Source of the DNA: a virus
Virus record (IMG/VR): IMGVR_UViG_3300014720_000224
Span: 1-21,492 of that record
Length of the DNA stretch: 21,492 bases
Reading direction: 5' to 3' (one strand)
Made by a program: the position numbers and the translations under genes. Positions 1-21,492 of this stretch are shown piece by piece. The notes below the pieces were generated by a model. It was not told the DNA's origin. It ran no database searches and was given only the letters and a program-made list of their open reading frames with translations. Each line of letters starts with the position of its first letter. Position 1 is the first letter of the stretch.

Positions 1-539
1 TCCTTAATGCAGATATAAAATCTAATGCTGCAATTTCGCACAGCAAATTGGCAAACATCACTGCTGGGCAAGTTCTTTTGGGTAATGCTTCAAACGTTCC
101 AACAGCAACTGCTTTATCTGGAAAGGTAACAATTGATTCATCTGGAGTCACATCAATCACTCCAGGTATTATTGTCAATGCAGACATTAGTTCATCTGCT
201 GCTATTGAAATCACAAAAATCGCCGACGTAACCATTGATACAAAAACAGCCAATTACACGCTGCTACTGACAGACAAGAACAAGTTCATCGAGATGAATC
301 TTGCTGGCGCAAATACGGTAAGCGTTCCAACGAACGCTTCTGTTGCTTTCCCAATCGGTTCACAAATTCACATCACGCAGTACGGCGCTGGCAAAACACA
401 GGTCGTGGCGGTAACGCCAGCAACGACAACGGTTAGGTCAACTCCAGGAACATATCTAAGAGCGCAGTACTCATCTGCAACGCTTGTGAAAAGAGCAACC
501 GATGAGTGGTATCTCGTTGGAGACCTCAGTGCCACATGA
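1..539 (+). CDS. Tail-fibre-like structural protein, C-terminal part (5' end outside window)
   Basis: The frame is open from base 3 to the TGA at 537-539, giving at least 178 residues; the start lies left of the window. The visible part holds a fibre-repeat segment (GNASNVPTATALSG, then VTIDSSGVTSITPG) and a C-terminal domain with DKNKFIEM, SVAFPIGSQI and LVKRATDEWYLVGD. The C-terminal about 120 residues closely match the end of the long fibre gene at the other window edge, which has DKNKIVEM, SVAFPVGSQI and LIKRAENTWVLVGD. Such domains are common at the ends of tail-fibre proteins of tailed phages, so a distal fibre or adhesin role is likely. The next gene starts inside its stop codon (ATGA), so the two are probably translated together. 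The function is inferred from repeat style and the paralog, not from a specific motif. Confidence 0.85.
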   Translation, partial: LNADIKSNAAISHSKLANITAGQVLLGNASNVPTATALSGKVTIDSSGVTSITPGIIVNADISSSAAIEITKIADVTIDTKTANYTLLLTDKNKFIEMNLAGANTVSVPTNASVAFPIGSQIHITQYGAGKTQVVAVTPATTTVRSTPGTYLRAQYSSATLVKRATDEWYLVGDLSAT

Positions 540-1123
540 GACCAATAGTAGGGAACACTTCTAGCGAAGGTAAAAAACCAACGACGCCGACCATCGGCAC
601 GGCCTCTGCTGGTGATGCGCAGGCGACAGTACCATTCACAGAATCCACATACCGTGGAAAAAATAATGCTGGAACCTACAGAGCAACATCTAGCCCTAGT
701 TCAATTGCGGGGACCTGCGCTGCGCCGTGCAATTCAATTACGGTTACTGGCTTAAGCAATGGAACTGCTTACACGTTTACCGTAAGACTTGAAACACCGT
801 ACGGTGTCAATTCGGATAATTCTTCTTCATCTAATTCTGTAACCCCTGTTGCGCCACCCTACTTCCCACCGTACTTCCCACCCTACTTCCCACCGTACTT
901 CCCACCACAGTTCCCACCTGTGGATTTCTGTACAACTTGCCTCGCTAGTACCCCATGCGTGTTTGCAAACTTTACTTTCACACAAAGAGTAACCAACCAC
1001 ACGAACTGCGCCTTCTTCGCAGGTATCTGCGGAGGAGTTTGCACTGGTAGTTATGATGAATATATCCATCCTTGCGGATATGGCTGTTGCGTAAGTTTGG
1101 CACTAAATGCATCATGCCCGTAA
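536..1123 (+). CDS. Fibronectin type III protein with PP[YQ]F repeat and cysteine-rich C-terminus
   Basis: A 195-residue protein. I chose the ATG at 536 because it overlaps the upstream stop (ATGA) and puts GKKPTTPT near the N-terminus, as in the right-hand paralog. Residues about 15-103 form a fibronectin III-like domain with the signature ITVTGLSNGTAYTFTV. Residues 107-128 are a proline/aromatic repeat: four PPYF units and one PPQF. The last about 65 residues carry ten cysteines (132, 135, 141, 158, 165, 169, 180, 184, 185, 194), including a CC pair; two more (61, 65) lie in the FnIII domain. Coupling to a tail-fibre gene suggests a virion surface or fibre-associated protein. The cysteine-rich domain is absent from the paralog and I do not recognise it; it could be disulphide-bonded or metal-binding. 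Confidence 0.85.
   Translation: MRPIVGNTSSEGKKPTTPTIGTASAGDAQATVPFTESTYRGKNNAGTYRATSSPSSIAGTCAAPCNSITVTGLSNGTAYTFTVRLETPYGVNSDNSSSSNSVTPVAPPYFPPYFPPYFPPYFPPQFPPVDFCTTCLASTPCVFANFTFTQRVTNHTNCAFFAGICGGVCTGSYDEYIHPCGYGCCVSLALNASCP
854..919 (+). repeat. 12-nt tandem repeat encoding PPYF units
   Basis: About five and a half copies of a 12-nt unit of the form CCACCSTACTTC sit in the FnIII protein gene and encode PPYF, with the last full unit changed to PPQF. It is the short counterpart of the much longer array at 16953-17306. The codons are nearly uniform between units, which suggests recent expansion or slippage. Confidence 0.9.
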
Positions 1124-1450: not shown

Positions 1451-1453
1451 ACA

Positions 1454-5220: not shown

Positions 5221-6117
5221 TCAGAATCCGCCTTGAACCAGCGAGAAAGCTAGCGAGCTGATGTGATGTTTATTTATTTCAAGATGATTGCGGAAATCCT
5301 CCCTAAGGGTGGGCATATAAACGTTTGTCGCTACTTGGGCTAGGTCGGGTTCTTTTATTGGGTCGACGATTGCTTCGTTGTATTGAATATTGGGACTCCC
5401 ATGCGAATACCATCCAAGATAGCTGTAGCGGGAACCACGCGTTACGGTGGTCACCTGATGTGAAGCAATGAAATTGGATGGGAACATTAAAATGTCTCCC
5501 TTTTTGGGCAAATAAGTTATCCCCAAATCATCAAATGCGTGGTGGCCACCACTAAAAGAATTATTGGTGACAACGTCCATGTCGTCTGTGCAATCGTTAA
5601 AATACACAATACACGACACGGTATTTCTGGTAGCCAGCTGGTCTGATGGTTGAGGAAATCCATAGACATAGTCAGCACTTGTATCAGAATGCACCCCCAG
5701 GTATTGGCGGTTTTGTTCTTCGTATCGGACGATGTGCCCCTTTACTTTCCACCATATATTTTTATAAGCAAGAGGGAATTTCGCCAGATATTGAAGCAAG
5801 TACGCATCTTTTGATTTTTCCAAAAAGTTTAAGAACTCTTTGATTTGCGGGTCTTTTCTTTGATGTGCAGAAGAACACCTCCCTGGCATTGCCATGAATG
5901 TGTCATCGCTAAATATGTAGCCGCTTTTATTTATTAGCGCTGGTTTTCCTGTTTCTGGGTGCAAGGTTGGCGTGTACATATCCGCGACATCCTCGCCAAC
6001 CAATTTCTCTGCTGTGTGATATGTCCATTCCCAGTCGAGAGTTATTGCGTTTTTGAATAAACACACACCAGACCCAAGATGCTCCATGGCTGAGTTATTA
6101 AACTCTGTAGTGGTCAT
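5221..6117 (-). CDS. 2OG-Fe(II) oxygenase, prolyl 4-hydroxylase-like (tandem copy 2)
   Basis: A 298-residue oxygenase. The N-terminal region has LGSGVCLFKNA and INKSGYIF. WWKVKGHIVRYEEQNRQYLG precedes H143-S-D145, SFSGGHHAFDDLGITY is the core strand, and FIASHQVTTVTRGSRYSYL provides H220 and R230. All expected metal and co-substrate residues are present, so it should be active. The start at 6117 has AGGAG 8 nt upstream, inside the end of the preceding gene (20 nt overlap). It is more closely related to the copies at 6098-6922 and 1731-2768 than to the other oxygenases here. The C-terminal about 60 residues after the core are not recognisable. The substrate is unknown. Confidence 0.9.
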   Translation of the reverse strand: MTTTEFNNSAMEHLGSGVCLFKNAITLDWEWTYHTAEKLVGEDVADMYTPTLHPETGKPALINKSGYIFSDDTFMAMPGRCSSAHQRKDPQIKEFLNFLEKSKDAYLLQYLAKFPLAYKNIWWKVKGHIVRYEEQNRQYLGVHSDTSADYVYGFPQPSDQLATRNTVSCIVYFNDCTDDMDVVTNNSFSGGHHAFDDLGITYLPKKGDILMFPSNFIASHQVTTVTRGSRYSYLGWYSHGSPNIQYNEAIVDPIKEPDLAQVATNVYMPTLREDFRNHLEINKHHISSLAFSLVQGGF

Positions 6118-6922
6118 TACTTCTACTCCTGTGCATTACGAGATGTGGTGGCGGTGTTTCCCCGTATTTGGCGTTTATGTACCTATCGTAGTCTCCCAGA
6201 ACGCTCTGGAGCCAAACCTGACCGCCATTGGAACTCGCAGCGGCCTGCGGGTCTATTCCGTGCTTTGCGTGTTCTGAGCCCTGAGCGAACCAAGCAAGAT
6301 ACGAATATCTCTTACCTTTGGTTACCTCGTTTATTTGGTGAGCAGCCGTATAGTTGGCCGGAAAAAATACAGCGTCCCCCGCTGAGGGAATGATATCAAC
6401 ATCAGCATATGGAAAATACATTGACCCGCCATCAAAGTCACTACCTGCTGTATTGAGAAAAATGATAGCACTCACCACATTTCTTGTTGCGTGTTGTTCG
6501 TCTGGAACATTTCCATATTTGTAATTTACGTCATTGTCGCAGTGTAATCCCAGAGAGCCGCCAGCAGAATAAGACAAAATGTGCCCGACGCTCTTCCACC
6601 AAAGGCAAGACAAGAGGGCGGGGAATATTTCCACGTATTTCAATAAGCAGTCATACAGTACCGCCTCGTATTCATTGTACCAGTCGTCTCCAAGTGCTTG
6701 CAGGCGCAACGGTGCTCGATGCATATGGTCCAAGCCATATATAAACCCCCCCTGGTTTACTGCGTGGACTGGTTTCCCTGATTCATCGTAAACAATCGTG
6801 AAGTTTGATTCAATTGCTTCCTGCTCAAGTCTCAACAATCTGTCTTGCATCTCGGCAAAATTAACATTATGCGCATTCTTAAATGTGACTATTCCATACC
6901 CGTGATTTATTATTTCAGTCAT
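6098..6922 (-). CDS. 2OG-Fe(II) oxygenase, prolyl 4-hydroxylase-like (tandem copy 1)
   Basis: A 274-residue oxygenase. HGYGIVTFKNA opens the N-terminal domain and VNQGGFIYGLDHMHRAP is the paralog-shared segment. WWKSVGHILSYSAGGSLGLH leads to H127-C-D129; FDGGSMYFPYADVDI is the core strand; TAAHQINEVTKGKRYSYLAW holds H195 and R205. The full Fe(II)/2OG set is present. It is the first of three tandem prolyl-hydroxylase-like genes, probably produced by duplication followed by strong divergence. The start ATG overlaps the stop of the glutathione-peroxidase-fold gene (ATGA). The C-terminus after the core is polar and histidine-containing, without a recognisable domain. The substrate is unknown. Confidence 0.9.
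   Translation of the reverse strand: MTEIINHGYGIVTFKNAHNVNFAEMQDRLLRLEQEAIESNFTIVYDESGKPVHAVNQGGFIYGLDHMHRAPLRLQALGDDWYNEYEAVLYDCLLKYVEIFPALLSCLWWKSVGHILSYSAGGSLGLHCDNDVNYKYGNVPDEQHATRNVVSAIIFLNTAGSDFDGGSMYFPYADVDIIPSAGDAVFFPANYTAAHQINEVTKGKRYSYLAWFAQGSEHAKHGIDPQAAASSNGGQVWLQSVLGDYDRYINAKYGETPPPHLVMHRSRSNDHYRV
6126..6130 (-). promoter_or_regulatory. Ribosome binding site for the oxygenase starting at 6117
   Basis: AGGAG on the minus strand lies 8 nt before the ATG at 6117, within the 3' end of the upstream oxygenase gene. Confidence 0.7.
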
Positions 6923-7536
6923 AGTAGTTCGTTAATCACTTCCACTATGGACGGATTGCCGATGGCAACTGCGGGTCCGATTGGTGAATCTGCCCAATTG
7001 AATCTCCAATAATTTTTCCCAGCTCTGTTCGTTAGAAATTTTTCGTAATTATTCGGAATTCTCATTATTGAACCTCCGGCAATATTTTGACCGGCAGCAG
7101 CTGTTTGACTCGTGTCTGCAGCAGTGTCATCTACCGCTCTAATTTCGTCTCCTCCCAAGTATTTCCAGACTGCATGCTTGGCTGGACCATTTACGTCAAC
7201 CTTGGTAGTAATAGGGAAAGTTACGAATGGATAATTTGTTTTTAAATTTTTCAATATTTCCTCGTCCGTACCCTGCTCCATCTCTCCAAACTGATTACAT
7301 GGATAACCTATTACGGAGAAATTTTTTTCTCGAAACATGTCGTGTAGTTGTTGCAATTCATACAAATGCTTTGCAGTTCTGGCCCATGACCAAAGGGGCT
7401 TAGTTTTTGGCTGGTATCTGGTTTTGGTTGCAATGTTCACATGTAAACAAACATGACCAAGCAGCGGACCAAGTAAGTCATCTGTGCTTCCGTCAAGAGC
7501 GCTTATCCGTATCTGATGGACAGAGTTAAAAGTCAT
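6919..7536 (-). CDS. Glutathione-peroxidase-fold protein with substituted active site
   Basis: A 205-residue protein that follows the glutathione peroxidase layout: ISALDGSTDDLLG; the strand CLHVNIATKT; YPCNQFGEMEQGTDEEI; KVDVNG; NNYEKFLTNRAG; and a final helix IVEVINELL. Active peroxidases use a Cys/Sec-Gln-Trp-Asn set. By motif alignment with human GPX1, the peroxidatic Cys/Sec is Thr39 here (NIATKT against NVASLU), the Gln is Met86 (GEM against GHQ), the Trp is Asn162 and only Asn163 remains. The secondary cysteine of FPCNQFG is kept as Cys80. About ten extra residues follow the active-site loop. The protein is probably not a classical peroxidase; it may be a thioredoxin-fold binding or scaffold protein. 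It overlaps both neighbours by 4 nt. Confidence 0.8.
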   Translation of the reverse strand: MTFNSVHQIRISALDGSTDDLLGPLLGHVCLHVNIATKTRYQPKTKPLWSWARTAKHLYELQQLHDMFREKNFSVIGYPCNQFGEMEQGTDEEILKNLKTNYPFVTFPITTKVDVNGPAKHAVWKYLGGDEIRAVDDTAADTSQTAAAGQNIAGGSIMRIPNNYEKFLTNRAGKNYWRFNWADSPIGPAVAIGNPSIVEVINELL

Positions 7537-7864: not shown

Positions 7865-8482
7865 CTAATTAACTATGGGCCTTTCTTGGTAGATTGACCA
7901 GTCTGCATTTGGCGTAATATTTGGCTTGACAGGGCTTAGATTCATGCTTATCACAATTCTTGGGATGCTTGAATTGTGCCTCGTGGTCATGTGATTTAGG
8001 TATGAATTAAAGATTGTAAGCATGCCTTCTTTTGGCTCAATCATCACGGAACTATTCATATATCCACACCAGTTTGCAGAAAATACCAGTGCGGCAGAGC
8101 CATCCGGAACCTGTGGATAATACGATACTGAAAAATACTCTTCCGGATATATGTGGTGTTTTTTGTGATGGCAGTGCGCCATAACGCTTTTACCTTTATC
8201 AAGAAGTATTGCCCATAATTCGTCAATTTGATGGGCGCGTCCACCAACCCTGTCCACTGCGGCAATCACTGCTTTTTCGAGTTTTTCAAACTCTTTGCTT
8301 CTTGGGCATACGGTGTCCTCGTATTGTATAAATCCGCTCCAGTTATACCGCTCATCACCAGACGGCACCGCATATCCATATTCTTGTATTTCATGTACAA
8401 GCTTTTTGTTGTCAATATCATTTAAAATTGTTGTAAATATACCCTGTGTTATGAGGGGTGTGTATGCAAGCTCTTCACTCAT
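7865..8482 (-). CDS. 2OG-Fe(II) oxygenase of the phage type (2OG-FeII_Oxy_5-like)
   Basis: A 205-residue protein. The pattern DELWAILLDKGKSVMAHCHH, then EYFSVSYYPQVPDGSAALVF, then EPKEGMLTIFNSYLNHMT and PRIVISMNL matches the putative 2OG-Fe(II) oxygenase family common in cyanophages (Pfam 2OG-FeII_Oxy_5). The likely metal site is H103-x-H105 with the distal H164; R175 is the candidate 2OG ligand. A His stands where most oxygenases have an acidic ligand, which I recall as normal for this family. The closing PKEGML-x-IF-x3-L-x-H signature is well preserved. The gene overlaps the upstream oxygenase by 8 nt. Its substrate is unknown, as for the family. Confidence 0.8.
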   Translation of the reverse strand: MSEELAYTPLITQGIFTTILNDIDNKKLVHEIQEYGYAVPSGDERYNWSGFIQYEDTVCPRSKEFEKLEKAVIAAVDRVGGRAHQIDELWAILLDKGKSVMAHCHHKKHHIYPEEYFSVSYYPQVPDGSAALVFSANWCGYMNSSVMIEPKEGMLTIFNSYLNHMTTRHNSSIPRIVISMNLSPVKPNITPNADWSIYQERPIVN

Positions 8483-9146
8483 AGAAAAACTTATCTAACC
8501 CAAGTGCGGTCGGTGGGTTGTTTTTGTGCCACACATTGATAACCATTACTTCGCGTTTTCCGGACTTTACTGGAGTCGTTGAATGAAGAACATGGCCTGC
8601 ATCGAAATTAATAAACCTATTGCCCCTGTACGCAATTCTTTCTCTTTGCTCAATTGGAGAAATGTTGCGGTCAATGCTGTCTCGCTCAAGTATCATTTTT
8701 TGTCCGTCAACCAATACGGACTGATGTATCTCTAGAAATCCACCATCTTTATTATCGCAACCGTACCAAATTCCACCAGCATGTGGTCCAGAAAACGTCT
8801 TGGAATCCGCGTACAAAAATGTATCTTCGTCGACGTGGACATCCAAATATTGGCCGGGAAGATACGTCCTGGTCCAATATTCAAATCCCAATATCTCATC
8901 TTGTCGCGCTGGGAGTCTATTTTCCCATAGCTCCTTGATTACTCTTTTTTTTAGAGTGTTTGCTTCGGATAACCACCACCCATCCCAAAACATATACGGC
9001 GCAAAACAACTAGCTTTTTCATCGTGGTAGGAATTTAGCTCTGTTGCTATTTTCTCGCCTGGTCCCATCGATTCAGGGAAAAATAAGCAGTCCCCAAGCA
9101 CATCAAGATAGAGATTCCTGCTGATTGCATCGTCCAATATCTGCAT
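8475..9146 (-). CDS. 2OG-Fe(II) oxygenase (prolyl-hydroxylase-like core)
   Basis: A 223-residue protein. FEYWTRTYLPGQYLDVHVDED gives the iron ligands H104 and D106. GGFLEIHQS is the central strand, NRFINFDAGHVLHSTTPV supplies the distal His (H188 most likely), and KSGKREVMVINVW supplies R198. The N-terminal about 90 residues are specific to this gene, with an aromatic patch (YMFWDGWWLSEA). It is not close to the tandem prolyl-hydroxylase-like copies and probably entered the region separately. It starts 8 nt after the Asp/Asn hydroxylase-like gene and overlaps the next oxygenase. The substrate is unknown. Confidence 0.85.
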   Translation of the reverse strand: MQILDDAISRNLYLDVLGDCLFFPESMGPGEKIATELNSYHDEKASCFAPYMFWDGWWLSEANTLKKRVIKELWENRLPARQDEILGFEYWTRTYLPGQYLDVHVDEDTFLYADSKTFSGPHAGGIWYGCDNKDGGFLEIHQSVLVDGQKMILERDSIDRNISPIEQRERIAYRGNRFINFDAGHVLHSTTPVKSGKREVMVINVWHKNNPPTALGLDKFFYE

Positions 9147-9154: not shown

Positions 9155-9898
9155 TTACAACCCTTCGATATCTGGAAAGCGAGCCCTGAGATACGTCATA
9201 TCAAAGTCAAAAAACAAAACTAATCTATCTTTGTCTCCGTTGTGTCTGACTGAATGCTTATATGGGCGACCGTCTTTAAATGCTAGTATTTTTCCTTCTT
9301 CCCAAGTTCTGCTTTTATCCCCTACTGTCAAAATACATTTTGGGTCATTGATTAATGACAAATGACATCTCATATGTTCATCTGCTCCAAAGTGTGGATT
9401 GATTGTTGTCCCTGGCTTAACCAAGCTGTAGAAAGCTCCAGAACATTGCCCCTCGTCTGCAAACTCATTAACTATTTTATTGAATGTTGGGAATTTTTTT
9501 CGAGAATCTTCGAGATGTTCTGGAATGGTTCTTTTTGTTTTCCATTTAAGTACTTTACGAATGTAATTAGTATTTGCCCATTGAACATTAATGTCTTCTT
9601 TTGGCATTGTTCCAGCTGCAAACCCCTCCCATACGCCGTCATGCAATTTTTCATTTCCCTCCCTGGCGCTGTCGGGTGTTGTGGCTTCGCGACTTGACTC
9701 TTTATCTATTTGTCCGCGGTTAGAAATGGCGAATTTGGGAACCGAAAACCTGGTAATGCTATCAGTCGTATTGTTGTTGTTGTGAGAATCCTGTACAAGG
9801 TATTCATCCCTTATTTTTATCCAATTTTTTTCAAGTTCGATACATACGGGTATTGTTGAGATTATCTCATCCCAAAACTCTGGAGTTTTATTTTTCAT
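9155..9898 (-). CDS. Aspartyl/asparaginyl beta-hydroxylase-like oxygenase
   Basis: A 247-residue protein. The C-terminal about 95 residues follow the Asp/Asn beta-hydroxylase pattern: FYSLVKPGTTINPHFG with H169, MRCHLSLIND with R177, KCILTVGDKSRTWEEGK, then YKHSVRHNGDKDRLVLFFDF with H215 and R225. Family members typically bind iron through two histidines without the acid and hydroxylate Asp/Asn in proteins; bacterial members also act on small molecules and lipids. The N-terminal about 150 residues contain a low-complexity Asn/Thr stretch (HNNNNTTDS) and no clear domain. With the prolyl-hydroxylase-like neighbours it broadens the range of possible side-chain hydroxylations. A 22-nt spacer separates it from the upstream methyltransferase-like gene. 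Confidence 0.85.
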   Translation of the reverse strand: MKNKTPEFWDEIISTIPVCIELEKNWIKIRDEYLVQDSHNNNNTTDSITRFSVPKFAISNRGQIDKESSREATTPDSAREGNEKLHDGVWEGFAAGTMPKEDINVQWANTNYIRKVLKWKTKRTIPEHLEDSRKKFPTFNKIVNEFADEGQCSGAFYSLVKPGTTINPHFGADEHMRCHLSLINDPKCILTVGDKSRTWEEGKILAFKDGRPYKHSVRHNGDKDRLVLFFDFDMTYLRARFPDIEGL

Positions 9899-11958: not shown

Positions 11959-12663
11959 TTATAGCAGTGGCGGCTCTGCAAGTTTGGGCATACCCATGAA
12001 CTCCGGACCTATTTTTTGTCCATCAGAGTCGAGTCCGGTTTTGATTCCCTTGGACCAAATCCACTCTCTGGATTTTTCTGCTTTTTCTTGACTGTACTTG
12101 ACCCTTCTGTCAATAAATTCTTTATTTTCCCAAATGTTAAATGATTCAAATTCCACAGAACCCAGCAATCCATCGTCCTGTATAGTGAAAAAACAAATTG
12201 GAGAGCCGGCAGGGAAAACAACCTCTTCGCCAACTTTTGTAATTTTCCAGTTCATTTGAACTTCGTCCGGCCACCACCACGTAGGAATAGTGGCAGTCAA
12301 ACCAACTGCTCCATCTGGGAAATAATTCGGGCTCCCAGAAATGACCGTTGAGTACGGCTGTTCTGTTTTTATTATCCAACCAAGTGTAAAAGATACCATT
12401 CCAATAATTGATTGTTGGACCTGACGGAATCCGTCTGACGAAAGTTCTCCCTTGATGACTCGCGGCACGGTGTTCCCACCATCCCAAATGACCACAACTT
12501 CTTCTTTTAGTTGCACCTCCCAGCCACTCACATTGGAAACAGTTACGGGGAGACATTGATATGCGTGTTTTTTGTGCGTGTCATCCATCCAGTTGCGCCT
12601 TATGCCAGCCTGCTTGATTGCTGGCGGATTTTGTCCAGATGGGCACAGCCCTATTTTTGTCAT
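11959..12663 (-). CDS. DUF6065-like protein
   Basis: A 234-residue protein. YQCLPVTVSNVSGWEV (residues 35-50), VVVIWDGG, FTLGWIIKTEQPYSTVISGS, PNYFPDG, then MNWKITKVGEEVVFPAGSP and ICFFTIQ reproduce, in order, the conserved words that I recall for DUF6065 proteins, which occur in bacteria and viruses and have no known function. The fold seems mainly beta and could be cupin-like. A WWW run lies at 129-131, and the C-terminus is charged and helical. Its start overlaps the stop of the upstream oxygenase (ATGA). DUF6065 genes near oxygenases may act in small-molecule or glycan metabolism, but I cannot support that from sequence. Confidence 0.7.
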   Translation of the reverse strand: MTKIGLCPSGQNPPAIKQAGIRRNWMDDTHKKHAYQCLPVTVSNVSGWEVQLKEEVVVIWDGGNTVPRVIKGELSSDGFRQVQQSIIGMVSFTLGWIIKTEQPYSTVISGSPNYFPDGAVGLTATIPTWWWPDEVQMNWKITKVGEEVVFPAGSPICFFTIQDDGLLGSVEFESFNIWENKEFIDRRVKYSQEKAEKSREWIWSKGIKTGLDSDGQKIGPEFMGMPKLAEPPLL

Positions 12664-13397
12664 CCTTTTGGAACCGCCAGTTGCCCTGGGGTGTATTTGG
12701 GTATTCCTGCGCCGGGCGTAGCTGGTGTTCCATCAATATTTTCGCCATATCCATGCTTGTGGTTTCTGTCGTTGTAGTCGAACATTGTCACGGCAACGTA
12801 TTTTGTGCCGCTTGTGACTGGTTTGGCGCCATGGGAATATATGTATGTCGATGGGAAAATTACGTTATCGCCAAACTCTGGTTTGATTGTGATGTTGAGA
12901 TTTGGAAAATACAATTCTCCGCCTTCGTAACCACTGTTCAAATAAAGACATGAGGAAACTGTGCAGGTATATGAAAAACCATGGTCGGTATGAACGCTGA
13001 AGTGTTCGCCTTCCTTGTATCTAACAAAATTAATTGCTTCCATAAAATCCATTTTTATGTTGTATCTTGCCTCGTAATCGGCTAGCGCAAATTTTAAGGA
13101 TTCGGAAACATCATGATAAATGTTTTTTATTTCTAAAAATTCATCCTGAGCATTATCTGCGTGTGCTTGCCCAATTTTACAATCGTGGCAATCTCTATAT
13201 TCTGGCATTTTTGTTTGGTCACCGACAAGGGCTTCCATCCACATGTACGGAGCGGTCGTACTTTCACCAATTGTTTTTTCAAGTCTTTCAACTACATTTT
13301 TTGCTTTTTCGCTGAGGGCGTTTCTGTAGAGAATAATTCCAAAACGTGGGTCGTCGACATGAAAAACTTGAATGTCTGGGCAAAGCATCTCTGTCAT
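12660..13397 (-). CDS. 2OG-Fe(II) oxygenase, prolyl 4-hydroxylase-like
   Basis: A 245-residue oxygenase. INFVRYKEGEHFSVHTDHG holds H136 and D138, YEGGELYFPNLNITIKPEFG is the core strand-turn, YSHGAKPVTSGTKYVAVTMF has the distal H189, and K199 occupies the position of the 2OG-binding Arg of the neighbours. Lysine at this place is what animal and algal prolyl 4-hydroxylases use, so of all the oxygenases here this one is most like a true prolyl hydroxylase in that feature. The start at 13397 has a strong AAGGAG site. A longer frame would overlap the upstream gene without such a site. The C-terminus is Gly/Pro-rich (IDGTPATPGAGIPKYTPG). It lies 13 nt after the next oxygenase upstream. Confidence 0.88.
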   Translation of the reverse strand: MTEMLCPDIQVFHVDDPRFGIILYRNALSEKAKNVVERLEKTIGESTTAPYMWMEALVGDQTKMPEYRDCHDCKIGQAHADNAQDEFLEIKNIYHDVSESLKFALADYEARYNIKMDFMEAINFVRYKEGEHFSVHTDHGFSYTCTVSSCLYLNSGYEGGELYFPNLNITIKPEFGDNVIFPSTYIYSHGAKPVTSGTKYVAVTMFDYNDRNHKHGYGENIDGTPATPGAGIPKYTPGQLAVPKG

Positions 13398-13403
13398 TTT
13401 TCT

Positions 13404-13409
13404 CTCCTT
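13404..13409 (-). promoter_or_regulatory. Ribosome binding site for the oxygenase starting at 13397
   Basis: AAGGAG on the minus strand is 6 nt before the ATG at 13397. It sits in the 13-nt gap after the upstream stop and sets the start there rather than at 13493. Confidence 0.85.
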
Positions 13410-13410
13410 G

Positions 13411-13947
13411 TTAATCCAAAATTGCAAACCACATTGCGGAGGAAAGTCTAACACCAGAAACAACCCTATGCACACAGTGGGCATATCGGGCATCTCCCGG
13501 AAAGAATATCAAACTGCCAGCTTTTGGTTTTATTTTTATATTTTTGTTGACAAACTCAATCTCGCCCCCTTCGAACTCTAAGCCAAAATATATTACTCCG
13601 GATACGTCAAAATTTTCAAAATTTGGTTTTGGTTTCCCGTCAAGAGTTTCATTGTCGGCGTGTATTTCTGGTTCGTGGTTGTCTGTCCGCCTAACAAAAA
13701 ACCCCGGATGAAATACGGACCAGTTGAGGTTTACGTTATAGGAGTCTTCAATCAATTTACCTGCGGCCATTGTCTCAACACGAATAGTGTTATATAGTTC
13801 TGAATAGCCTTCTTCTTTCATTTTCTGTGGGCTAAGCGATTCTTTAACATCAACCGACAATTGATTAATAAGCTCGAGAGAATCATGGTTGATAAAGTTT
13901 AAAACTTGATAAATACCGTCTAGTTTTCTGCTTTTATCGGAAGACAT
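13411..13947 (-). CDS. 2OG-Fe(II) oxygenase, compact prolyl-hydroxylase-like
   Basis: A 178-residue oxygenase, nearly only the catalytic core. EPEIHADNETLDGKPKPNF gives H96 and D98, FEGGEIEFVNKNIKIKPKAG is the core strand, and YAHCVHRVVSGVRLSSAMWF gives the distal H157 and R167. The H-A-D...DGxPxPN wording and the PKAG-x-LIFFPGD strand also occur in the two oxygenases further upstream (13951 and 15340), so this trio forms a second paralog group distinct from the one at 4410-6922. It is 3 nt from the upstream gene. The short N-terminal part (about 80 residues) is helical. The substrate is unknown. Confidence 0.88.
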   Translation of the reverse strand: MSSDKSRKLDGIYQVLNFINHDSLELINQLSVDVKESLSPQKMKEEGYSELYNTIRVETMAAGKLIEDSYNVNLNWSVFHPGFFVRRTDNHEPEIHADNETLDGKPKPNFENFDVSGVIYFGLEFEGGEIEFVNKNIKIKPKAGSLIFFPGDARYAHCVHRVVSGVRLSSAMWFAILD

Positions 13948-13950: not shown

Positions 13951-14574
13951 CTATACAACCGTATAGAACGATGGGGTCGTATATCTTTCTCCAGACGTAA
14001 TCATTTTGACACCATGCAGGTAATTCACATCACCTGGGTGGATAACTGCAAGACCAGGCTTGGGGCGCACGGTTATATTGTGCTGTGGATAGTAGAGCTC
14101 TCCACCGGTAAACTCATCGTTGTAGTAAAAAAGGGTATTTATGTCGTAGTCGACAAATGCATTTGGGCGCCCGTCATTTAACTGTTTGTCTGCGTGGGGT
14201 TGTTGCTCTATGCCAGGACGCCACTTCATGATTACTGGCGGACGGACTGAAACCTCAACGCCGAATATGGACTCAATAGTTTCTTTCATTTTGTAGATGT
14301 ACTTATCCACTAGGGCATGTACTGCTGGGTTGAGTCGCAGCAAAATATCACTGCTGCACTGTCTATCGTTCCAATAATCGGCGTTATAAAGGCAGGTTCC
14401 ATCCTCCGCATACACGCTTTCTGCTTCATTGTTCCACTCATTTATTGTCGGACAAAAGTCTTGAATTTTTTTTAAGTCATTTTCATTTATAAAATTTTCA
14501 ATAACGTGTATGTTTTCTGGACCTGTTCCAAAATGCCCTGGCTTTATTTTCCATGGCGATTCTTCAGTAATCAT
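13951..14574 (-). CDS. 2OG-Fe(II) oxygenase, prolyl-hydroxylase-like (paralog of the gene at 15340)
   Basis: A 207-residue oxygenase. MKWRPGIEQQPHADKQLNDG carries H127 and D129, GGELYYPQHNITVRPKPG is the core strand, and YLHGVKMITSGERYTTPSFY carries H187 and R197. Several words are shared with the gene at 15340-15921: INEW in the N-terminal domain, [RK]W-x2-G-x-EQ before the metal site, PQHxI, YLHGV and RYT-x-P-x-F. The pair therefore arose by duplication and now flanks a sulfotransferase gene. The ATG overlaps the sulfotransferase stop (ATGA). The substrate is unknown, but its coupling to a sulfotransferase suggests that the two modifications act in the same pathway. Confidence 0.9.
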   Translation of the reverse strand: MITEESPWKIKPGHFGTGPENIHVIENFINENDLKKIQDFCPTINEWNNEAESVYAEDGTCLYNADYWNDRQCSSDILLRLNPAVHALVDKYIYKMKETIESIFGVEVSVRPPVIMKWRPGIEQQPHADKQLNDGRPNAFVDYDINTLFYYNDEFTGGELYYPQHNITVRPKPGLAVIHPGDVNYLHGVKMITSGERYTTPSFYTVV

Positions 14575-15347
14575 GATTCACCGCCGTTCGACATGACATA
14601 ATCATACAGCTCCATATCCATATGGTTGCGGCTTTCTATTTCTTTTACTTGCGCAGGACTTGGCATGACGCCACTTCTTACTGAAGAATTTATTTTGTTG
14701 TTGTCAATCCCCCAAAAATCACAGTCAAATTTTTCTTTACATTGTTTTATTAAATAGTTGTTAATTTCTTTTCTTTGATTTATTTCAAACAGTTTAATAT
14801 TTTTTATTTTATTTACTAATTTGTTTTTGGTTTTTGGCATATCTGATTCAACAAACAACATTGCATTTTCATTTATTTCTTTACTAGAAATATGTTCTCC
14901 AAAAATTTGTTTAATGCTGAAAATTCTACACGTAAGCATTTTTGTTTGCAGATTTCCGTCAAATGAAAAAAGTTTGCATTCAAATGGATAGTCTTCTTGA
15001 CCTTCGAGAAATGCATCAAGTGTTGATTTGTCAAATTTTCTATTTGCCGACATTGCTCTGTAGGCGGCAATACTAATAAAATGGTCAATCGGTTCTCTTA
15101 TAACTGAAAAAGTTTCTATTTGTCCGTTATTTTCTATTATCGGATTTGCTGCAAAGTGTCCACTTATCATTGGCCAATTTTTCATTTTTTCTTTATCGTA
15201 AGAAAATTCAAATATTCCAGGAACTAATTTTCCATATTCACGATTTTTAATTTTTGTAACATTGTTTAACTCAAACGACTTTTGTAATGAATAAAGTATT
15301 CCAGTTCCAGAGGTTCTAGGTATGTGTAAATGATAAAGATTATTCAT
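14571..15347 (-). CDS. Sulfotransferase family protein
   Basis: A 258-residue protein. The N-terminus LYHLHIPRTSGTGILYSL contains the 5'-phosphosulfate-binding loop (HIPRTSGT, residues 8-15), and FSVIREPIDHFISIAAY (residues 80-96) is the 3'-phosphate-binding motif with R84 and a Ser at 92. SGHFAANP before it is also typical of carbohydrate-type sulfotransferases (Sulfotransfer_2). Such enzymes move sulfate from PAPS to a hydroxyl or amine on a glycan, protein tyrosine or small molecule. No transmembrane anchor is present, unlike Golgi enzymes, so it should act in the host cytoplasm. The gene is strikingly AT-rich (about 30% G+C by hand count), well below the fibre genes. It overlaps an oxygenase gene on each side by 4-8 nt. 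Confidence 0.85.
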   Translation of the reverse strand: MNNLYHLHIPRTSGTGILYSLQKSFELNNVTKIKNREYGKLVPGIFEFSYDKEKMKNWPMISGHFAANPIIENNGQIETFSVIREPIDHFISIAAYRAMSANRKFDKSTLDAFLEGQEDYPFECKLFSFDGNLQTKMLTCRIFSIKQIFGEHISSKEINENAMLFVESDMPKTKNKLVNKIKNIKLFEINQRKEINNYLIKQCKEKFDCDFWGIDNNKINSSVRSGVMPSPAQVKEIESRNHMDMELYDYVMSNGGES

Positions 15348-15921
15348 TTTTATTTTTTGTGAGTATTTTGTGTTTTATTGGAACCCAAAAATGAGGTGAC
15401 GTGTATCTAACTCCTTCTAAAACTTTTCTTACACCGTGAAGGTAATAACTTCCAGAAGGGAAAAATATCAACATTCCCGCTTTTGGTGTTATTTCAATAC
15501 CGTGTTGAGGAAAATATATTTCTCCACCAAGATAGTTATCATTTATATACATTATTGAACCATAGTCAACAATATAGGTTTCGTTCGGTGTGCCATCCCT
15601 ATTCTCTCCGTCGCCATGCAGCTCTTGTTCTTCCCCGGCGTCCCATCTACGTATTCCAGCTTCAGCTGGCTCTAACGGTCTACCAAATTTAAACTCAATT
15701 TGTCTTTGTATTTCGTCAATGTAACCCTTCATCGTGTCATACAGCTCTGGGTTGTTGGCTTTCATGTGTTTTGCTGTTGATATTTTATCTTTACCGCTAG
15801 CTGACCATGTTTCCCACTCGTTGATGGAATAGCAGTATTTGTATAGTCTGCTCAAGTCGTCAGCTGAAATAAAATTTCGAACGATGACAATATTATTTGA
15901 GTCTGCCACCCTGGCGTTCAT
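15340..15921 (-). CDS. 2OG-Fe(II) oxygenase, prolyl-hydroxylase-like (paralog of the gene at 13951)
   Basis: A 193-residue oxygenase. RRWDAGEEQELHGDGENRDG gives H102 and D104; LGGEIYFPQHGIEITPKAG is the core strand; YYLHGVRKVLEGVRYTSPHF gives H162 and R172. It resembles the product of 13951-14574 throughout, and all catalytic residues are present. The C-terminus adds a lysine-rich tail (HKILTKNKNE). The ATG at 15921 is 2 nt after the stop of the glutathione-peroxidase-like gene, and a GGTGAG element lies a few bases upstream. The substrate is unknown. Confidence 0.9.
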   Translation of the reverse strand: MNARVADSNNIVIVRNFISADDLSRLYKYCYSINEWETWSASGKDKISTAKHMKANNPELYDTMKGYIDEIQRQIEFKFGRPLEPAEAGIRRWDAGEEQELHGDGENRDGTPNETYIVDYGSIMYINDNYLGGEIYFPQHGIEITPKAGMLIFFPSGSYYLHGVRKVLEGVRYTSPHFWVPIKHKILTKNKNE

Positions 15922-15923: not shown

Positions 15924-16922
15924 TTACTCACCAAGAAATGTCTCTATATCTTCGCTAATTATATGAAGAGATACTTCAATGCCTTTTCTTTGAAGAAGAT
16001 TTGGCCATGATTTATCTCCATATGCCCTGTATGCATCTTCGTTTTCTGGTGAGGGGTCAGTTTTTGGATTATGGTTTCGACGTCCATCATTGGTCCAAGA
16101 CTCTGTAATCCATGGGAATGTCTCCCCATTAATGTTTCTTTCCCCAAGAAGAAATCCGTTTGCGTATCTTTTTATTTTTGTTCCTGTTTTATCAATCAAA
16201 AACTTTTCAAAATTTCCGCGCAACGGGTCAAAACCTTTTACTTTTTCTGGTTGTTTCAATTTACCGTTTTCGTCCATTTCTTCTGCGTATGACCAAGGTA
16301 TTACCTCATTGTGATATGGAACGCCATTTGGCTGAAGGTCTGCCTTGTGTGCTCCTGTCAAATACCACCAAAGTTCATGTTGTTCTTGAATTTTTTCCTT
16401 GCCCGGAACGTAGCCAGGGTCATAAGTGTGTTTATCAAATCTTCCATTTGTTAATTCGGAAAACTTGTACGTGGTTCCAAAATTGTCTTCAGCATATTTT
16501 TTTGCCACTTCTCCTGGGGTCAGATTTAAACTATTTTGTTCTGCATAGGCCATCAATCCATTTTGAAATTCTGGATATCCGTGACAAACAAAGTCGTCAA
16601 CAACTATGGCAATGATATTAAAATTTGGTTCGTGTTTATACATCTGATTAAGTTCTTCAATGACCGAGTGTTGCGGTATGTTCCCGCACCCAGCAGCAAC
16701 ATTAAACACAAGTGTCACTTTGCCTTTTTGTTTACTCAAAATATCTGATTCTTTTCCGTCAGCAGAGGACAACTTAATGTCATAAATAGAAACTGGCAAT
16801 GTGTGCTCAAGCCATTCTGTGTCGTTTTTAAGCGATTCCGATACACAATTTTTTGCTATTTCCAAAACTCCATTTTGTAATTTTGTTTTAGAAATAAATT
16901 CATTTACGGTTGTTGCTGTCAT
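15924..16922 (-). CDS. Large glutathione-peroxidase-like / thioredoxin-fold protein
   Basis: A 332-residue protein. The layout is that of glutathione peroxidases with extensions: IYDIKLSSADGKESD, KGKVTLVFNVAAGCGN with a possible peroxidatic C79, IIAIVVDDFVCHGYP with C113 at the place of the FPCNQFG cysteine, and GNFEKFLIDKTGTKIKRY. The Trp of the catalytic tetrad is Gly236 and the Gln is not at its usual spacing, whereas Asn237 is kept. An insert of more than 60 residues rich in His/Tyr/Trp (about 150-225) and about 80 C-terminal residues are not part of the family. A redox role through C79/C113 is possible. GGAG 6 nt upstream favours the ATG at 16922 over the one at 16934. It follows the FnIII repeat gene by 18 nt. 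Confidence 0.75.
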   Translation of the reverse strand: MTATTVNEFISKTKLQNGVLEIAKNCVSESLKNDTEWLEHTLPVSIYDIKLSSADGKESDILSKQKGKVTLVFNVAAGCGNIPQHSVIEELNQMYKHEPNFNIIAIVVDDFVCHGYPEFQNGLMAYAEQNSLNLTPGEVAKKYAEDNFGTTYKFSELTNGRFDKHTYDPGYVPGKEKIQEQHELWWYLTGAHKADLQPNGVPYHNEVIPWSYAEEMDENGKLKQPEKVKGFDPLRGNFEKFLIDKTGTKIKRYANGFLLGERNINGETFPWITESWTNDGRRNHNPKTDPSPENEDAYRAYGDKSWPNLLQRKGIEVSLHIISEDIETFLGE

Positions 16923-16928
16923 GGTTGT

Positions 16929-16932
16929 CTCC
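16929..16932 (-). promoter_or_regulatory. Ribosome binding site for the gene starting at 16922
   Basis: GGAG on the minus strand lies 6 nt before the ATG at 16922. It overlaps the alternative ATG at 16934, which itself has no upstream purine-rich site. Confidence 0.65.
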
Positions 16933-16940
16933 ATTTTGTA

Positions 16941-17633
16941 TCACTTAAATCCCGGCGGGAAGAACGGTGGGAAGTATGGGGGGAAGAACGGCGGGAAGAA
17001 CGGAGGGAAAAACGGGGGGAAGAACGGCGGGAAGAACGGAGGGAAAAACGGGGGGAAGAACGGTGGGAAGAACGGTGGGAAGTATGGGGGAAAGAACGGC
17101 GGGAAGAACGGTGGGAAGTATGGGGGAAAGAACGGCGGGAAGAATGGAGGAAAGTACGGCGGGAAAAAGGGCGGAAAGAACGGGGGAAAGTATGGCGGGA
17201 AAAAGGGCGGAAAGAACGGGGGAAAGTATGGCGGGAAAAAGGGCGGGAAAAATGGTGGGAAGTACGGCGGGAAAAACGGGGGGAAGAACGGGGGAAAGTA
17301 TGGCGGAGTTACGGAACTCGATGCACTTGAATCATCCGATGCAACGCCATAGTTTGTGTTGGCTTTGACAGTGAATGTATAAGCTGTTCCAGCAGTCAAT
17401 CCAGAAACCGTTATTGGAGAACTACTGCCGGTTCCTGTAAGCCCGCTTGGAGAACTTGTTGCCGTATAGGTGACTGTTCCTTTGCCAATGTATGTTGATG
17501 CAGTAAAAGCAACACTGACTTGCTGAGCATTATTTCCTGCTGTGTTATTGGCTTGGTCTACGGCGGTGCCAGTAACGTTGGTTGGCGTTGTTGGCTTTTT
17601 GCCGCCACTGTCCTTTGGTGTCTTATTTGCCAT
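16941..17633 (-). CDS. Fibronectin type III protein with long [FY]FPP repeat tail
   Basis: A 230-residue protein. Residues about 11-109 are a fibronectin III-like domain with SSSPITVSGLTAGTAYTFTV and an NYGVASDDSSASSSVTP end. Residues 110-227 are PP followed by 29 uninterrupted four-residue units: mostly FFPP, with YFPP at every third unit in the N-terminal two thirds. The protein ends in GFK. It is the paralog of the left-hand protein at 536-1123: both have GKKPTTPT near the start, the same FnIII signature, and follow a tail-fibre gene directly. It has no cysteine-rich tail. Polyproline with regular aromatics should give an extended, sticky rod, as suits a fibre tip or adhesin. It is the most obvious local candidate substrate for prolyl hydroxylases. 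It starts 3 nt after the fibre gene stop. Confidence 0.88.
   Translation of the reverse strand: MANKTPKDSGGKKPTTPTNVTGTAVDQANNTAGNNAQQVSVAFTASTYIGKGTVTYTATSSPSGLTGTGSSSPITVSGLTAGTAYTFTVKANTNYGVASDDSSASSSVTPPYFPPFFPPFFPPYFPPFFPPFFPPYFPPFFPPFFPPYFPPFFPPFFPPYFPPFFPPFFPPYFPPFFPPFFPPYFPPFFPPFFPPFFPPFFPPFFPPFFPPFFPPFFPPYFPPFFPPGFK
16953..17306 (-). repeat. 12-nt tandem repeat array, 29 units, coding for [FY]FPP
   Basis: A near-perfect array of 12-nt units of the form GGSAARWAYGGS as read on the plus strand (coding strand pyrimidine-rich), with no interruption. A 36-nt higher-order period is visible because a Tyr codon recurs every third unit over most of the array. The plus strand is very G-rich, with many GGG to GGGGGG runs a few bases apart. 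Such arrays change length easily by slippage in multiples of 12 nt without breaking the frame. Confidence 0.92.
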
Positions 17634-17636: not shown

Positions 17637-20600
17637 TTATGCCGAAATGTCTCCGACAAGAACCCAAGTATTCTCTGCTCGCTTAATGAGCGTAGCATAC
17701 GACCACTGTGTCCGCATCTTCAAACCTGGATTTGCATTGATTGTTACACCACCAGTTGCGACGACCGTCGTCTGTCCGGCGCCAGTTTGAAGAATGTTGA
17801 TTTGCGAACCAACAGGAAATGCAACTGAACTGTTTAATGGAACTGTCAAGTTATTCGCAGAAGCATTGCTCATCTCTACGATTTTGTTTTTATCAGACAG
17901 CACGAGTGTGTACGAAGCCGATTGGGCGCTTGTTGAAATATCTGCCAATTTGTCCAACTCAATCGCAGCCGAAGCATTTATGTCTGCGTTAACAATCGTG
18001 CCATCTGCAATCATTGTGCTGGTTACTGTGCCAGTATCGGTCGTTTGGACGACTGTTGCACCAACGGCGATTGTTGCTGTAGAACCCTCGCCTGGGGTGT
18101 GAGTTACCGAAATGCCTGTTCCCGCCGAAACACCCACCATGTAGTTTCCAGTTGTGTCCGTGCCAAGGTCAATTACGTCGTTAACCCATGCGCTTCCGTT
18201 CCACTTGAGGAATTGTCCAGAAGCCGCAGATGTGATGGTGACATCGCCGACGTCATCAAGCGTGTTGATTGTCGGAATTGAGGCATTCACCCACGCAGAG
18301 CCGTTCCACTTCAAGAACTCACCGTTGGCAGCACTGGTGATGGTGACATCGCCAATGTCGTTGAGCGTTGCTGGCGTCAGCGACGCGGCGTAAGACTCGG
18401 TTGCAATGTCGCCATAGGTCGTGCCGTTATTTGTTATTTCCCACTTGTCCGAAGTCTCATTCCAGCGAATTGCAACATTTGTAGAAGAACCGCGCTCAAC
18501 TTCGATGCCAGCATTCTCCGACGGCGCGCCAGTGGCGTTGTTGTTCAAAACGATGATGTTGTCGTCAATTGTTACTGTCTCGGCATTAACCGATGTGGTC
18601 GTTCCTGAAACCGTGAGGTTGCCAGTGACGGTCAGATTGTCATCAACCGTTACCGTGCCGCCAGCGGAGTCAATCGTCAATCCACCCGATGTGGTGTCAA
18701 TCTCATTGGCCGCAGTTACGCCAACTCGTACGGCATCAATGGTTGCTCCAGCAAAAGTTACGTTGTCGCTAGTTCCTACAGACTGACCGATTGACAACGT
18801 ATGTGTAGTGCCTTCACCAGACGTTGCGGCACTTGAAGTTACGCCCGTGCCACCAGTAATCGTGGCTACGTAATTACCAGTTGTTTTAGTCCCAAGAGCA
18901 ACTGTGTTATCTGGCAAAGTTACTGTGCCAGTAAAAGTTGGGGAAGCAAGCGGTGCCTTGAGGTCAAGGGCAGTTTGCGTAGCGCTAGAAACTGGCTTAT
19001 TCGCATCGCTCGTGTTGTCTACATTCCCAAGCCCAACATCACCCTTGACCAAACCAGCAGGAGAAGTGATTGTTTTGTTTGTAAGAGTTTGCGCCCCAGT
19101 GGTAGTAACCAAAATTGAAGTGTCGGCAATGCCGTGGATATTGGTTGTATCTGACTCATGGTTGCTGAGTGCTGTCGCCGCATTGGTTGCCGCGGTTGAA
19201 GCCGCACCAAAGGCATCAAACGTGTTTGTGGTTACCGCAATAGTCGGCGTTGCCGTTTCACCAGAGTTATTGCTGAGCGTAATCCCAGTTCCAGCAACAA
19301 GGCTGGCTACATAATTACCAGTCGTATCCGTGCCAAGAGCCACGCTGTTCGCCGCAATTGTTGCGGTGATTGATGCGTTGGCTGAGCCATTAAATGAAGC
19401 AGAACCAGTGACGTCGCCCGTCAACTCAATTGTTCTTGAAGTGGCGAGCGTGGTTGCGGTGTCTGCATTGCCCGTCAAATTTCCAGTGACATTGCCCGTT
19501 ACGTTGCCAGTCAACGGAGCGGTGACGCCCGCAAAAGTTACGGTGGAGCCAGTGCCAACTGCTTGACCGATTGCAATCGTTGGGCTTGACCCTTCACCTG
19601 GAGTATGCGTAACAGTTACACCTGTTCCTGCGGTTACATCTGCTACATAGTTACCTGTTGTGTCTGTACCAAGAGCGACTGAGTTCGGTTGAATCGTCGC
19701 TGAAATTGATGCATTTGCTGAGCCATTGAACGAGGCTGAACCCGTCACATCTCCAGTCAGTTCAATCGTTCGCGAGGTGGCGAGGGTTGTTGCGGTGTCT
19801 GCGTTGCCCGTGACGTTTCCGGTAAGTGGTGCGGTTACGCCCGCAAAAGTTACGGTGGAACCAGTGCCCACTGCTTGACCGATAGCAATAGTTGGTGTTG
19901 CTGTTTCTCCAGAGTTGTTACTAAGTGTTACGCCAGTACCAGCAACAAGACTTGCAACATAGTCACCAGTTGTATCGGTACCTAGTGCCACCGAGTTGGG
20001 TTGAATGGTCGCTGTAAGTGTTCCGCTTCCAAGGTTTGTTAATGTAAGCGAACCAGAAAGGTCTCCATCAAGAGTCACAACTGGAGAAACACCCGTAATT
20101 GTTGGATTATTTATTGTTGGCGATGTAAGTGTTTTGTTTGTTAACGTCTGCGCATCAGAAAGTGTCGCAACAGTCGCAATATTAATACTTAAAATATTTC
20201 CCGATTTAGACAATCCATTTCCTGCTGTGATGGTGGCAGTTCCAGTAAATTGCGTAAAATTTACTTCGTCTGTTCCAAGAATGTGTCTTCCAATTGTCCC
20301 TGTTCCACTTTGATTTTCCGCTGTTCCAATTGAATTAACAATGAATCCATTTCCCGCATTTATGGCGCCACCAAGTACAAAAAATGCGTCTCCTGGTTCA
20401 ATGTAATTATTAACTGAGTCAAAATCAGTTGCACGAGTAAGTTGGTATGTAGTACTTACGGAACCTTGTACAGTTACAACATAAACACCGTTATTCTGCG
20501 GAGTGGCTTGGTCTTTTACAAGTATTCTATTTCCATTTGAAGCGTTTGTTCCGTCAACTTGCAATCTTGCGTTTGTTGTTGCGGTAAGCGTCGCACCCTC

Positions 20601-21492
20601 ACCGCTTGTGCCGTTGTTATAAGTTGGCGAATTGGGAAGAGCTGCAGCGGTTGCAAGGTTAACAGCATCATGAAAATTTATACCTGCTGCAATATTGTCT
20701 ACATAGCTTTTTGTAGTGGCGTCGGTAGGCGCGCTTGGGGTGCCCGAAAGCGTCACTTTTGCGAAGGTTGGGCTATCGGTAGTACCGACAGATTGACCAA
20801 TGGCGATAGTCGGCGTCGCGCTCTCGCTTGAGTTGTTCGTCAGGGTTACGCCAGTGCCAGCAACGAGGCTCGCTACGTAATCACCAGTCGTGTCGGCTCC
20901 AAGAGCAACGCTGTTTGGCTGAATTGTCGCAGTGATTGATGCGTTTGCTGAGCCATCAAACGAAGCAGAACCAGCAACATCACCAGTCAATGAAATCGTT
21001 CGCGAGGTGGCAAGTGTCGTCGCTGTATCCGCGTTGCCCGTCACGTTTCCCGTGACATTACCCGTGACGTTTCCAGTAAGTGGTGCGGTTACACCAGCGA
21101 AAGTAACGCTAGACGCGGTGCCAACTGCTTGGCCAATTGCGATTGTTGGTGTTGCGCTTTCGCCAGAATTATCGGTTAGTGTTACGCCAGTTCCTGCGAC
21201 CAATGAAGAAACATAGTTACCAGTGGTGTCCGTTCCAAGAGTCACGCTGTTTGGTTGGATGGTTGCCGAGATTGAGGCGTTCTCTGAACCATCAAAAGAA
21301 ACCGAACCCGACACATCACCAGTGAGCGAAATTGTGCGAGCAGTTTCAAGTGCCGAAGCAGTATCTGCATTGCCGGTGAGGTCACCAACAAAATTTGCGC
21401 TTTCACCAGTACTGATACCGCCAGAGAACGAAATGTCGGTTCCGTCGGTCGTAATTTCAACACCGCCCAGGTCAATTGTGGTTCCCGACAGA
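17637..21492 (-). CDS. Long tail-fibre-like repeat protein (5' end outside window)
   Basis: The frame is open from the right edge to the TAA at 17637-17639, giving at least 1284 residues; an internal GTG at 21314 is not the real start. About seven degenerate copies of a roughly 100-residue repeat are visible, built on TIQPNSVALGTDTTGNYV, AGTGVTLSNNSGE and TPTIAIGQAVGTGSTVTFAG, joined by TGNVTGN / TGNADTATTLATSRTI linkers. Between them are fibre-type segments: KSYVDNIAAGINFHDAVN, a DVGLGNVDNTSDANKPVS word known from many phage fibres, and LTVSGTTTSVNAETVTIDDN. The C-terminal domain (DKNKIVEM, FPVGSQI, NTWVLVGDISA) matches that of the left gene. It is the likely distal tail fibre or adhesin. 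The function comes from repeat style and family resemblance. Confidence 0.9.
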   Translation of the reverse strand, partial: LSGTTIDLGGVEITTDGTDISFSGGISTGESANFVGDLTGNADTASALETARTISLTGDVSGSVSFDGSENASISATIQPNSVTLGTDTTGNYVSSLVAGTGVTLTDNSGESATPTIAIGQAVGTASSVTFAGVTAPLTGNVTGNVTGNVTGNADTATTLATSRTISLTGDVAGSASFDGSANASITATIQPNSVALGADTTGDYVASLVAGTGVTLTNNSSESATPTIAIGQSVGTTDSPTFAKVTLSGTPSAPTDATTKSYVDNIAAGINFHDAVNLATAAALPNSPTYNNGTSGEGATLTATTNARLQVDGTNASNGNRILVKDQATPQNNGVYVVTVQGSVSTTYQLTRATDFDSVNNYIEPGDAFFVLGGAINAGNGFIVNSIGTAENQSGTGTIGRHILGTDEVNFTQFTGTATITAGNGLSKSGNILSINIATVATLSDAQTLTNKTLTSPTINNPTITGVSPVVTLDGDLSGSLTLTNLGSGTLTATIQPNSVALGTDTTGDYVASLVAGTGVTLSNNSGETATPTIAIGQAVGTGSTVTFAGVTAPLTGNVTGNADTATTLATSRTIELTGDVTGSASFNGSANASISATIQPNSVALGTDTTGNYVADVTAGTGVTVTHTPGEGSSPTIAIGQAVGTGSTVTFAGVTAPLTGNVTGNVTGNLTGNADTATTLATSRTIELTGDVTGSASFNGSANASITATIAANSVALGTDTTGNYVASLVAGTGITLSNNSGETATPTIAVTTNTFDAFGAASTAATNAATALSNHESDTTNIHGIADTSILVTTTGAQTLTNKTITSPAGLVKGDVGLGNVDNTSDANKPVSSATQTALDLKAPLASPTFTGTVTLPDNTVALGTKTTGNYVATITGGTGVTSSAATSGEGTTHTLSIGQSVGTSDNVTFAGATIDAVRVGVTAANEIDTTSGGLTIDSAGGTVTVDDNLTVTGNLTVSGTTTSVNAETVTIDDNIIVLNNNATGAPSENAGIEVERGSSTNVAIRWNETSDKWEITNNGTTYGDIATESYAASLTPATLNDIGDVTITSAANGEFLKWNGSAWVNASIPTINTLDDVGDVTITSAASGQFLKWNGSAWVNDVIDLGTDTTGNYMVGVSAGTGISVTHTPGEGSTATIAVGATVVQTTDTGTVTSTMIADGTIVNADINASAAIELDKLADISTSAQSASYTLVLSDKNKIVEMSNASANNLTVPLNSSVAFPVGSQINILQTGAGQTTVVATGGVTINANPGLKMRTQWSYATLIKRAENTWVLVGDISA
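18080..21492 (-). repeat. Degenerate protein-coding repeats of the tail fibre
   Basis: Within the long fibre gene, about seven copies of an about 300-nt unit encode LGTDTTGNYV / GTGVTL / TPTIAIGQ words. The unit is best preserved at 19190-20060 and 20750-21492. A stretch from about 20060 to 20745 is unique and does not carry the repeat. The copies differ at many third codon positions, which indicates old duplication or exchange between repeats. Confidence 0.75.

Follow-up and report, generated by a model that had tools for sequence, protein, structure and literature searches.

This locus raises the question of what a sulfotransferase gene does in a phage genome, next to tail-fibre and oxygenase genes, and of how long it has been there. 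The window, i.e., the whole analysed stretch of 21,492 nucleotides (positions 1 to 21,492 of IMG/VR record IMGVR_UViG_3300014720_000224), carries the gene at 14571..15347 on the minus strand, with an ATG start and an open and intact frame of 258 amino acids. An earlier note, made from the sequence alone, had called the product a sulfotransferase with intact PAPS-binding motifs. Both motifs were found in the ORF, the PAPS loop HIPRTSGT as H8-I-P-R-T-S-G-T15 and the R-x7-S segment of the 3'-phosphate site as R84-EPIDHFI-S92. In the alignment of 42 distinct relatives, the residues Y5, L7, H8, I9, P10, G14, H64, P69, R84, P86, S92, N132, Q134, N220, and D244 are invariant, so the motifs are beyond chance. 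The loop holds the Lys/Arg and Gly that mark PAPS binding in the PAPS-dependent sulfotransferase superfamily (R11 and G14), and R84 and S92 provide the Arg and helix Ser of the 3'-phosphate site in all 42 sequences. Position 11 is either K or R in these relatives; several carry Lys and the window copy has Arg11. Such an Arg in place of the PAPS-loop Lys has a precedent in mycobacterial (Mt) Stf0 (PMC11625862). The only invariant His residues are H8 and H64, and the latter is the candidate catalytic base.

The relatives were first gathered by a search with the neighbouring oxygenase, in which a sulfotransferase was seen in the same slot of related contigs, and profiles built from them confirmed 28 stretches in IMG/VR at first and 167 in a later scan. 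The description of sulfotransferases as rare in phages therefore does not hold, since the 167 stretches came from one scan and other phage sulfotransferases, in P-SSM7, S-T4, and ACG-2014f, had already been annotated. With the single window sequence, phmmer against the PDB gave no convincing relative, and neither did tblastn against 50,697 phage records, where S-T4 appeared at E 9 only. Against the Pfam family PF03567 (Sulfotransfer_2), the window protein scored 17.1 bits, below the gathering cut-off of 22, and only 3 of the 42 relatives matched at E 0.01. The PxxRxxS motif and the PAPS-loop Lys of PF03567 are replaced in the window protein by P86-ID-H89-FI-S92 and Arg11. Because the single sequence scores below the Pfam cut-off, the assignment relies on the family profile and the predicted fold. 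The profile of 42 sequences matched the heparan sulfate 6-O-sulfotransferase HS6ST3 in the PDB in three collinear segments (E 1.9e-6). The AlphaFold2 model reached a pLDDT of 85.4 and a pTM of 0.87 (an earlier model from 7 sequences, with a pLDDT of 37, was discarded) and has the alpha/beta sulfotransferase fold, with Z scores of 14.8 to HS2ST and 13.3 to HS6ST. The next-best score was 9.6, and tyrosylprotein sulfotransferase (TPST) folds aligned at Z 7.3-7.5 only, in a tied middle range. Thus, the product is very likely a PAPS-dependent sulfotransferase, as the earlier note had said, and catalysis of sulfate transfer is likely.

The sulfotransferase belongs to a cassette on the minus strand, in which a long fibre gene is followed by an fn3-(F/Y)FPP protein, a redoxin-like gene, an oxygenase, the sulfotransferase, and further oxygenases. 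The first product is a long tail-fibre or minor tail protein of 1225 aa (17637..21314), and the second (16941..17633) consists of an fn3 domain and then about 29 tandem (F/Y)FPP repeats, which make it a candidate substrate of modification enzymes. A glutathione-peroxidase/redoxin-like protein (15924..16934) is encoded between the fibre and oxygenase genes; a second glutathione-peroxidase-like protein of the window cassette lies at 6919-7536. Directly upstream of the sulfotransferase is a 2OG-Fe(II) oxygenase gene (15340..15921), whose stop is overlapped by the sulfotransferase start by 8 nt. Directly downstream, a second one (13951..14574) starts in an ATGA overlap with the sulfotransferase stop; its nearest solved relatives are bacterial prolyl 4-hydroxylases. 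The HxD...H...R iron/2OG site is present in both neighbouring proteins. The same minus-strand run continues with a 2OG-Fe(II) oxygenase at 13411..13947, a prolyl 4-hydroxylase-like one at 12660..13493 (PDB 3itq/5hv0, E 3.5e-7), whose true start is probably at about 13430, and a DUF6065 protein, which is a conserved cassette member (11959..12663). For the two oxygenases compared with solved structures, the nearest were bacterial collagen-type prolyl 4-hydroxylases. The minus strand from the FPP gene to the oxygenases showed no terminator-like site. Further members of the oxygenase array on this strand are an Asp/Asn hydroxylase-like protein (9155-9898), a PhyH oxygenase (2765-3583), and 2OG-type oxygenases at 4410-5219, 5221-6117, 6098-6922, 7865-8482, and 8475-9146, and one more 2OG-type gene lies on the plus strand (1653-2768). 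In total, the window holds 12 genes of the 2OG-Fe(II) type between 1653 and 15921, the 8475 gene being a weak match, and this is an unusually dense array for one 21-kb window. At the other edge of the array, another fn3-(Y)FPP repeat protein, Cys-rich at its C-terminus, is encoded (506..1123, plus strand), beside a second fibre end (48-539). The two FPP proteins (506-1123 and 16941-17633) bracket the array on opposite strands, each behind a fibre gene end, and both fibre ends are alike at the C-terminus.

The association of the sulfotransferase with oxygenases is conserved in other phages. A 2OG oxygenase lies within 2 kb in 41 of the 42 distinct phage copies and is adjacent in 40, and one like that at 15340..15921 is the same neighbour in most orthologous loci. 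Moreover, in L110 (2817-4295) and in L111-L113 the sulfotransferase and a 2OG oxygenase are fused as one 493-aa ORF, the frame of which is open in both sequence versions (99.66% alike). There are one or two sulfotransferase copies per cassette; tandem copies occur in L069, L070, L071, L081, L085, L086, L092-L099, and L101-L109, and in the pairs that were compared, the PAPS loop reads HIPR in one copy and HIPK in the other. Two oxygenase domains are also found fused with each other, in a 495-aa ORF at L112:9115-10599. In an independent approach, IMG/VR was scanned for DNA coding three FPP repeats, with the enzymes ignored, which gave at least 80 usable loci. Among the matches listed, at least 76 loci had in-frame repeats, and 54 of these 76 had a 2OG oxygenase and 10 a sulfotransferase; among the matches listed, an oxygenase was present in 42 of the 54 loci of at least 6 kb. 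These loci are phylogenetically dependent and some of the contigs had been seen before, and the counts are given without a p-value. In the other fetched parts (about 135 kb) of a related 154-kb contig, the only oxygenases were two located at the cassette's far edge. A distant sulfotransferase is located downstream of the FPP gene in the distant phages L219, L174, and L244. FPP fibres with oxygenases also occur without a nearby sulfotransferase, and sulfation would therefore be optional.

The low G+C content of the gene had been read as a sign of recent acquisition. The hand counts behind this reading (about 30% for the gene, stretches near 12%, fibre gene above 50% in places) agree with the measured values. 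The gene has 30.2% G+C with a GC3 of 23.6% and 11.7% in its poorest 60-base stretch, and the adjacent fibre-type genes have 49-53%; most other window genes are at about 38-46%, with a GC3 of 30-47%. The recent arrival of a foreign AT-rich gene by horizontal transfer would fit this 30% against about 42% in the surroundings, as well as silent sites that diverge sharply from a sibling contig, IMGVR_UViG_3300020183_005982 (L061). On the other hand, each of the 42 distinct phage copies is lower in G+C than its own flanks (mean -7.4 points, extreme -13.8), so low G+C is a property of the sulfotransferase family; the window copy, at -12.2 points, is at the low end, among the most AT-rich of the family. 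In related phages, orthologues with 33-56% identity occupy the corresponding position, flanked by the same pair of 2OG-oxygenase genes. When the phylogeny and base composition proposed as a check in the earlier note were run, the window protein fell within a clade of phage proteins only (SH-aLRT 99, 34-row set), with relatives that are likewise AT-rich. The bacterial relatives found are distant, with about 25-33% identity over roughly the first 80-140 residues. Recent gain is thus refuted for the gene and we regard it as highly improbable, the remaining option being allele exchange between related phages. On this sequence evidence, the gene is a long-standing cassette member, already present in the ancestor of this uncultured phage group. 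A Gp23 search for classing the phage gave no match, a negative that does not indicate absence. For the terminase of a related 154-kb contig, the nearest matches come from Gordonia phages and from archaeal psiM phages, at about 43%, which is too distant, and host naming from this match was rejected.

By comparing the window with L061, an island of divergence was found at 14400..15650, which covers the sulfotransferase gene and reaches into the near end of the oxygenase gene on either side. The DNA identity is mostly 93-99% on both flanks and 52-65% over the sulfotransferase, and the drop begins and ends inside the two adjoining oxygenase genes. The two sulfotransferase proteins share 50% aa identity, next to flanks that are 94-99% identical, and their tree distance is 1.31 vs. 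0.02 for the flanks. Identity at four-fold sites is 19% in the sulfotransferase, rises to 67 and 77% in the two flanking genes, and reaches 91-94% beyond them. Positive selection alone was ruled out as the cause of the island, given 19% identical four-fold sites vs. 91-94% in undisturbed genes. Because of the island and its silent sites, the simplest reading suggested is that the allele in the window or in L061 was exchanged by homologous recombination with a relative, although the AU test leaves sister alleles possible (p 0.30) and does not indicate which of the two contigs carries the exchanged allele. It would mean that the recent part may be the allele and not the gene.

From the computed fold, motifs, synteny, fusion, and co-occurrence, we hypothesize, with about even confidence, that the sulfotransferase is a virion-protein modification enzyme that works with the oxygenases and has the FPP fibre as its prime candidate substrate. 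The FPP protein is presumed to be in the virion because its gene comes after a fibre gene. The enzyme would be cytoplasmic, PAPS-dependent, and a member of the heparan 2-O/6-O-sulfotransferase branch. The loop HIPRTSGT, together with the site formed by R84 and S92, would hold PAPS, with Arg11 in place of the usual PAPS-loop Lys, and His64 would probably deprotonate the acceptor hydroxyl. It would be expressed from the fibre operon together with the prolyl-4-hydroxylase-like 2OG oxygenases, in a common pathway. The oxygenases would hydroxylate phage fibre proteins, chiefly the (F/Y)FPP-repeat tail, which is the obvious Pro-rich target, and the sulfotransferase would then sulfate hydroxyls there, on hydroxyproline, tyrosine, or an attached sugar. 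The outcome would be a stiff and negatively charged fibre end, which may affect adsorption. The sulfated fibre already proposed in the earlier note thus remains the leading idea, strengthened by the fibre/oxygenase cassette and the sulfotransferase-oxygenase fusion, with an acceptor that we infer. Altogether, the gene content suggests that phages of this group chemically decorate their own fibres. It is improbable, in our estimate, that the adjacent or fused prolyl hydroxylase and sulfotransferase make a new modification on (F/Y)FPP fibres, either hydroxyproline that is itself sulfated or hydroxyproline that bears a sulfated sugar.

The acceptor may also lie elsewhere. Members of the HS2ST/HS6ST branch act mostly on sugars, and a bacterial relative in L160 stands beside apparent sugar-nucleotide and glycosyltransferase genes; by eye, this neighbourhood, the one bacterial locus examined in any detail, resembles a surface-polysaccharide cluster. 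For these reasons, a glycan is at least as natural an acceptor as a protein. The closest folds, those of the polysaccharide sulfotransferases HS2ST and HS6ST, are also compatible with an enzyme whose acceptor during infection is a polysaccharide of the host surface or a lipid-linked sugar, e.g., as a superinfection block, the oxygenases being unrelated in pathway. It is not obvious, however, why such an enzyme would be linked to the fibre operon, and over deep divergence the sulfotransferase is locked between oxygenases behind fibre genes and is even fused to an oxygenase in one lineage, which makes a host glycan rather unlikely. Alternatively, the substrate could be a small molecule or a nucleotide, and the gene a passenger of a hypervariable late region. 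This would be in line with the cytosolic SULTs, which have the same fold, and the 2OG superfamily includes small-molecule members. The SULTs score well below HS2ST and HS6ST, though, and the conserved gene order is unlike random cargo, and we therefore find this reading quite doubtful.

It was also considered that the enzyme might be a tyrosylprotein sulfotransferase, with the YFPP-repeat Tyr as its acceptor. InterPro IPR010635 groups a protein-tyrosine sulfotransferase with HS6ST (listed in PMC11625862). FPP proteins with a nearby sulfotransferase also have more repeat Tyr than those without (median 0.20 vs. 0, p 0.013, with kinship ignored). On the contrary, L174 and L219 have the enzyme and FPP repeats without Tyr, and some Tyr-rich FPP loci have no sulfotransferase, so the repeat Tyr is not a required acceptor, and we consider this specificity unlikely.

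Compared with known enzymes, the window sulfotransferase shares with HS2ST/HS6ST (Sulfotransfer_2 branch; PDB 4ndz, 5t05) a common fold over 198-212 residues, the PAPS loop and the 3'-phosphate site, and with HS6ST a C-terminal N...D..Y segment. The identity is 16% or less, and the window protein differs in having Arg at the Lys position of the PAPS loop and His at the Arg position of PxxRxxS, and in lacking the eukaryotic-type N-terminal anchor region, the fold beginning at residue 4. Phage sulfotransferases have been annotated before, with an unclear role (PMC10580990). Those of Prochlorococcus phage P-SSM7, Synechococcus phages S-T4 and ACG-2014f, and uncultured Caudovirales are phage-encoded members of the same fold class with 12-21% identity to the window protein. 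In phages, 2OG oxygenases occur widely and have prolyl-hydroxylase-like folds, and their benefit in aquatic phages has so far been described in general terms only (PMC12774648). In the open-access literature, we found no report on phage FPP repeats, on fibre hydroxylation with sulfation, or on a link of phage sulfotransferases or 2OG oxygenases to FPP-repeat fibres. A further parallel is a virus-encoded hydroxylase of a eukaryotic virus, which is thought to act on viral Pro-rich proteins; here, in contrast, a phage has up to 12 oxygenase genes in a run plus a sulfotransferase. Hydroxylation and sulfation of proteins are best known from eukaryotic extracellular proteins. The gene order, the fusion, and the repeat-bearing fibre-type proteins lead to one definite and testable role, virion-protein hydroxylation and sulfation. 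Such a role would also offer one reason why 2OG oxygenases are so numerous in aquatic phages.

Some minor observations accompany these loci. A DUF6171 protein (window 1442-1687) adjoins an oxygenase gene and is encoded directly beside the sulfotransferase in the distant phages L144, L145, L147, and L148. A PAPS-reductase-domain protein is present at L075:15592-16731, on a related 154-kb phage contig. By eye, the FPP-type repeat proteins at L023:1-618 and L026:3578-4903 end in a look-alike of a Hint/intein-like autoprocessing domain.
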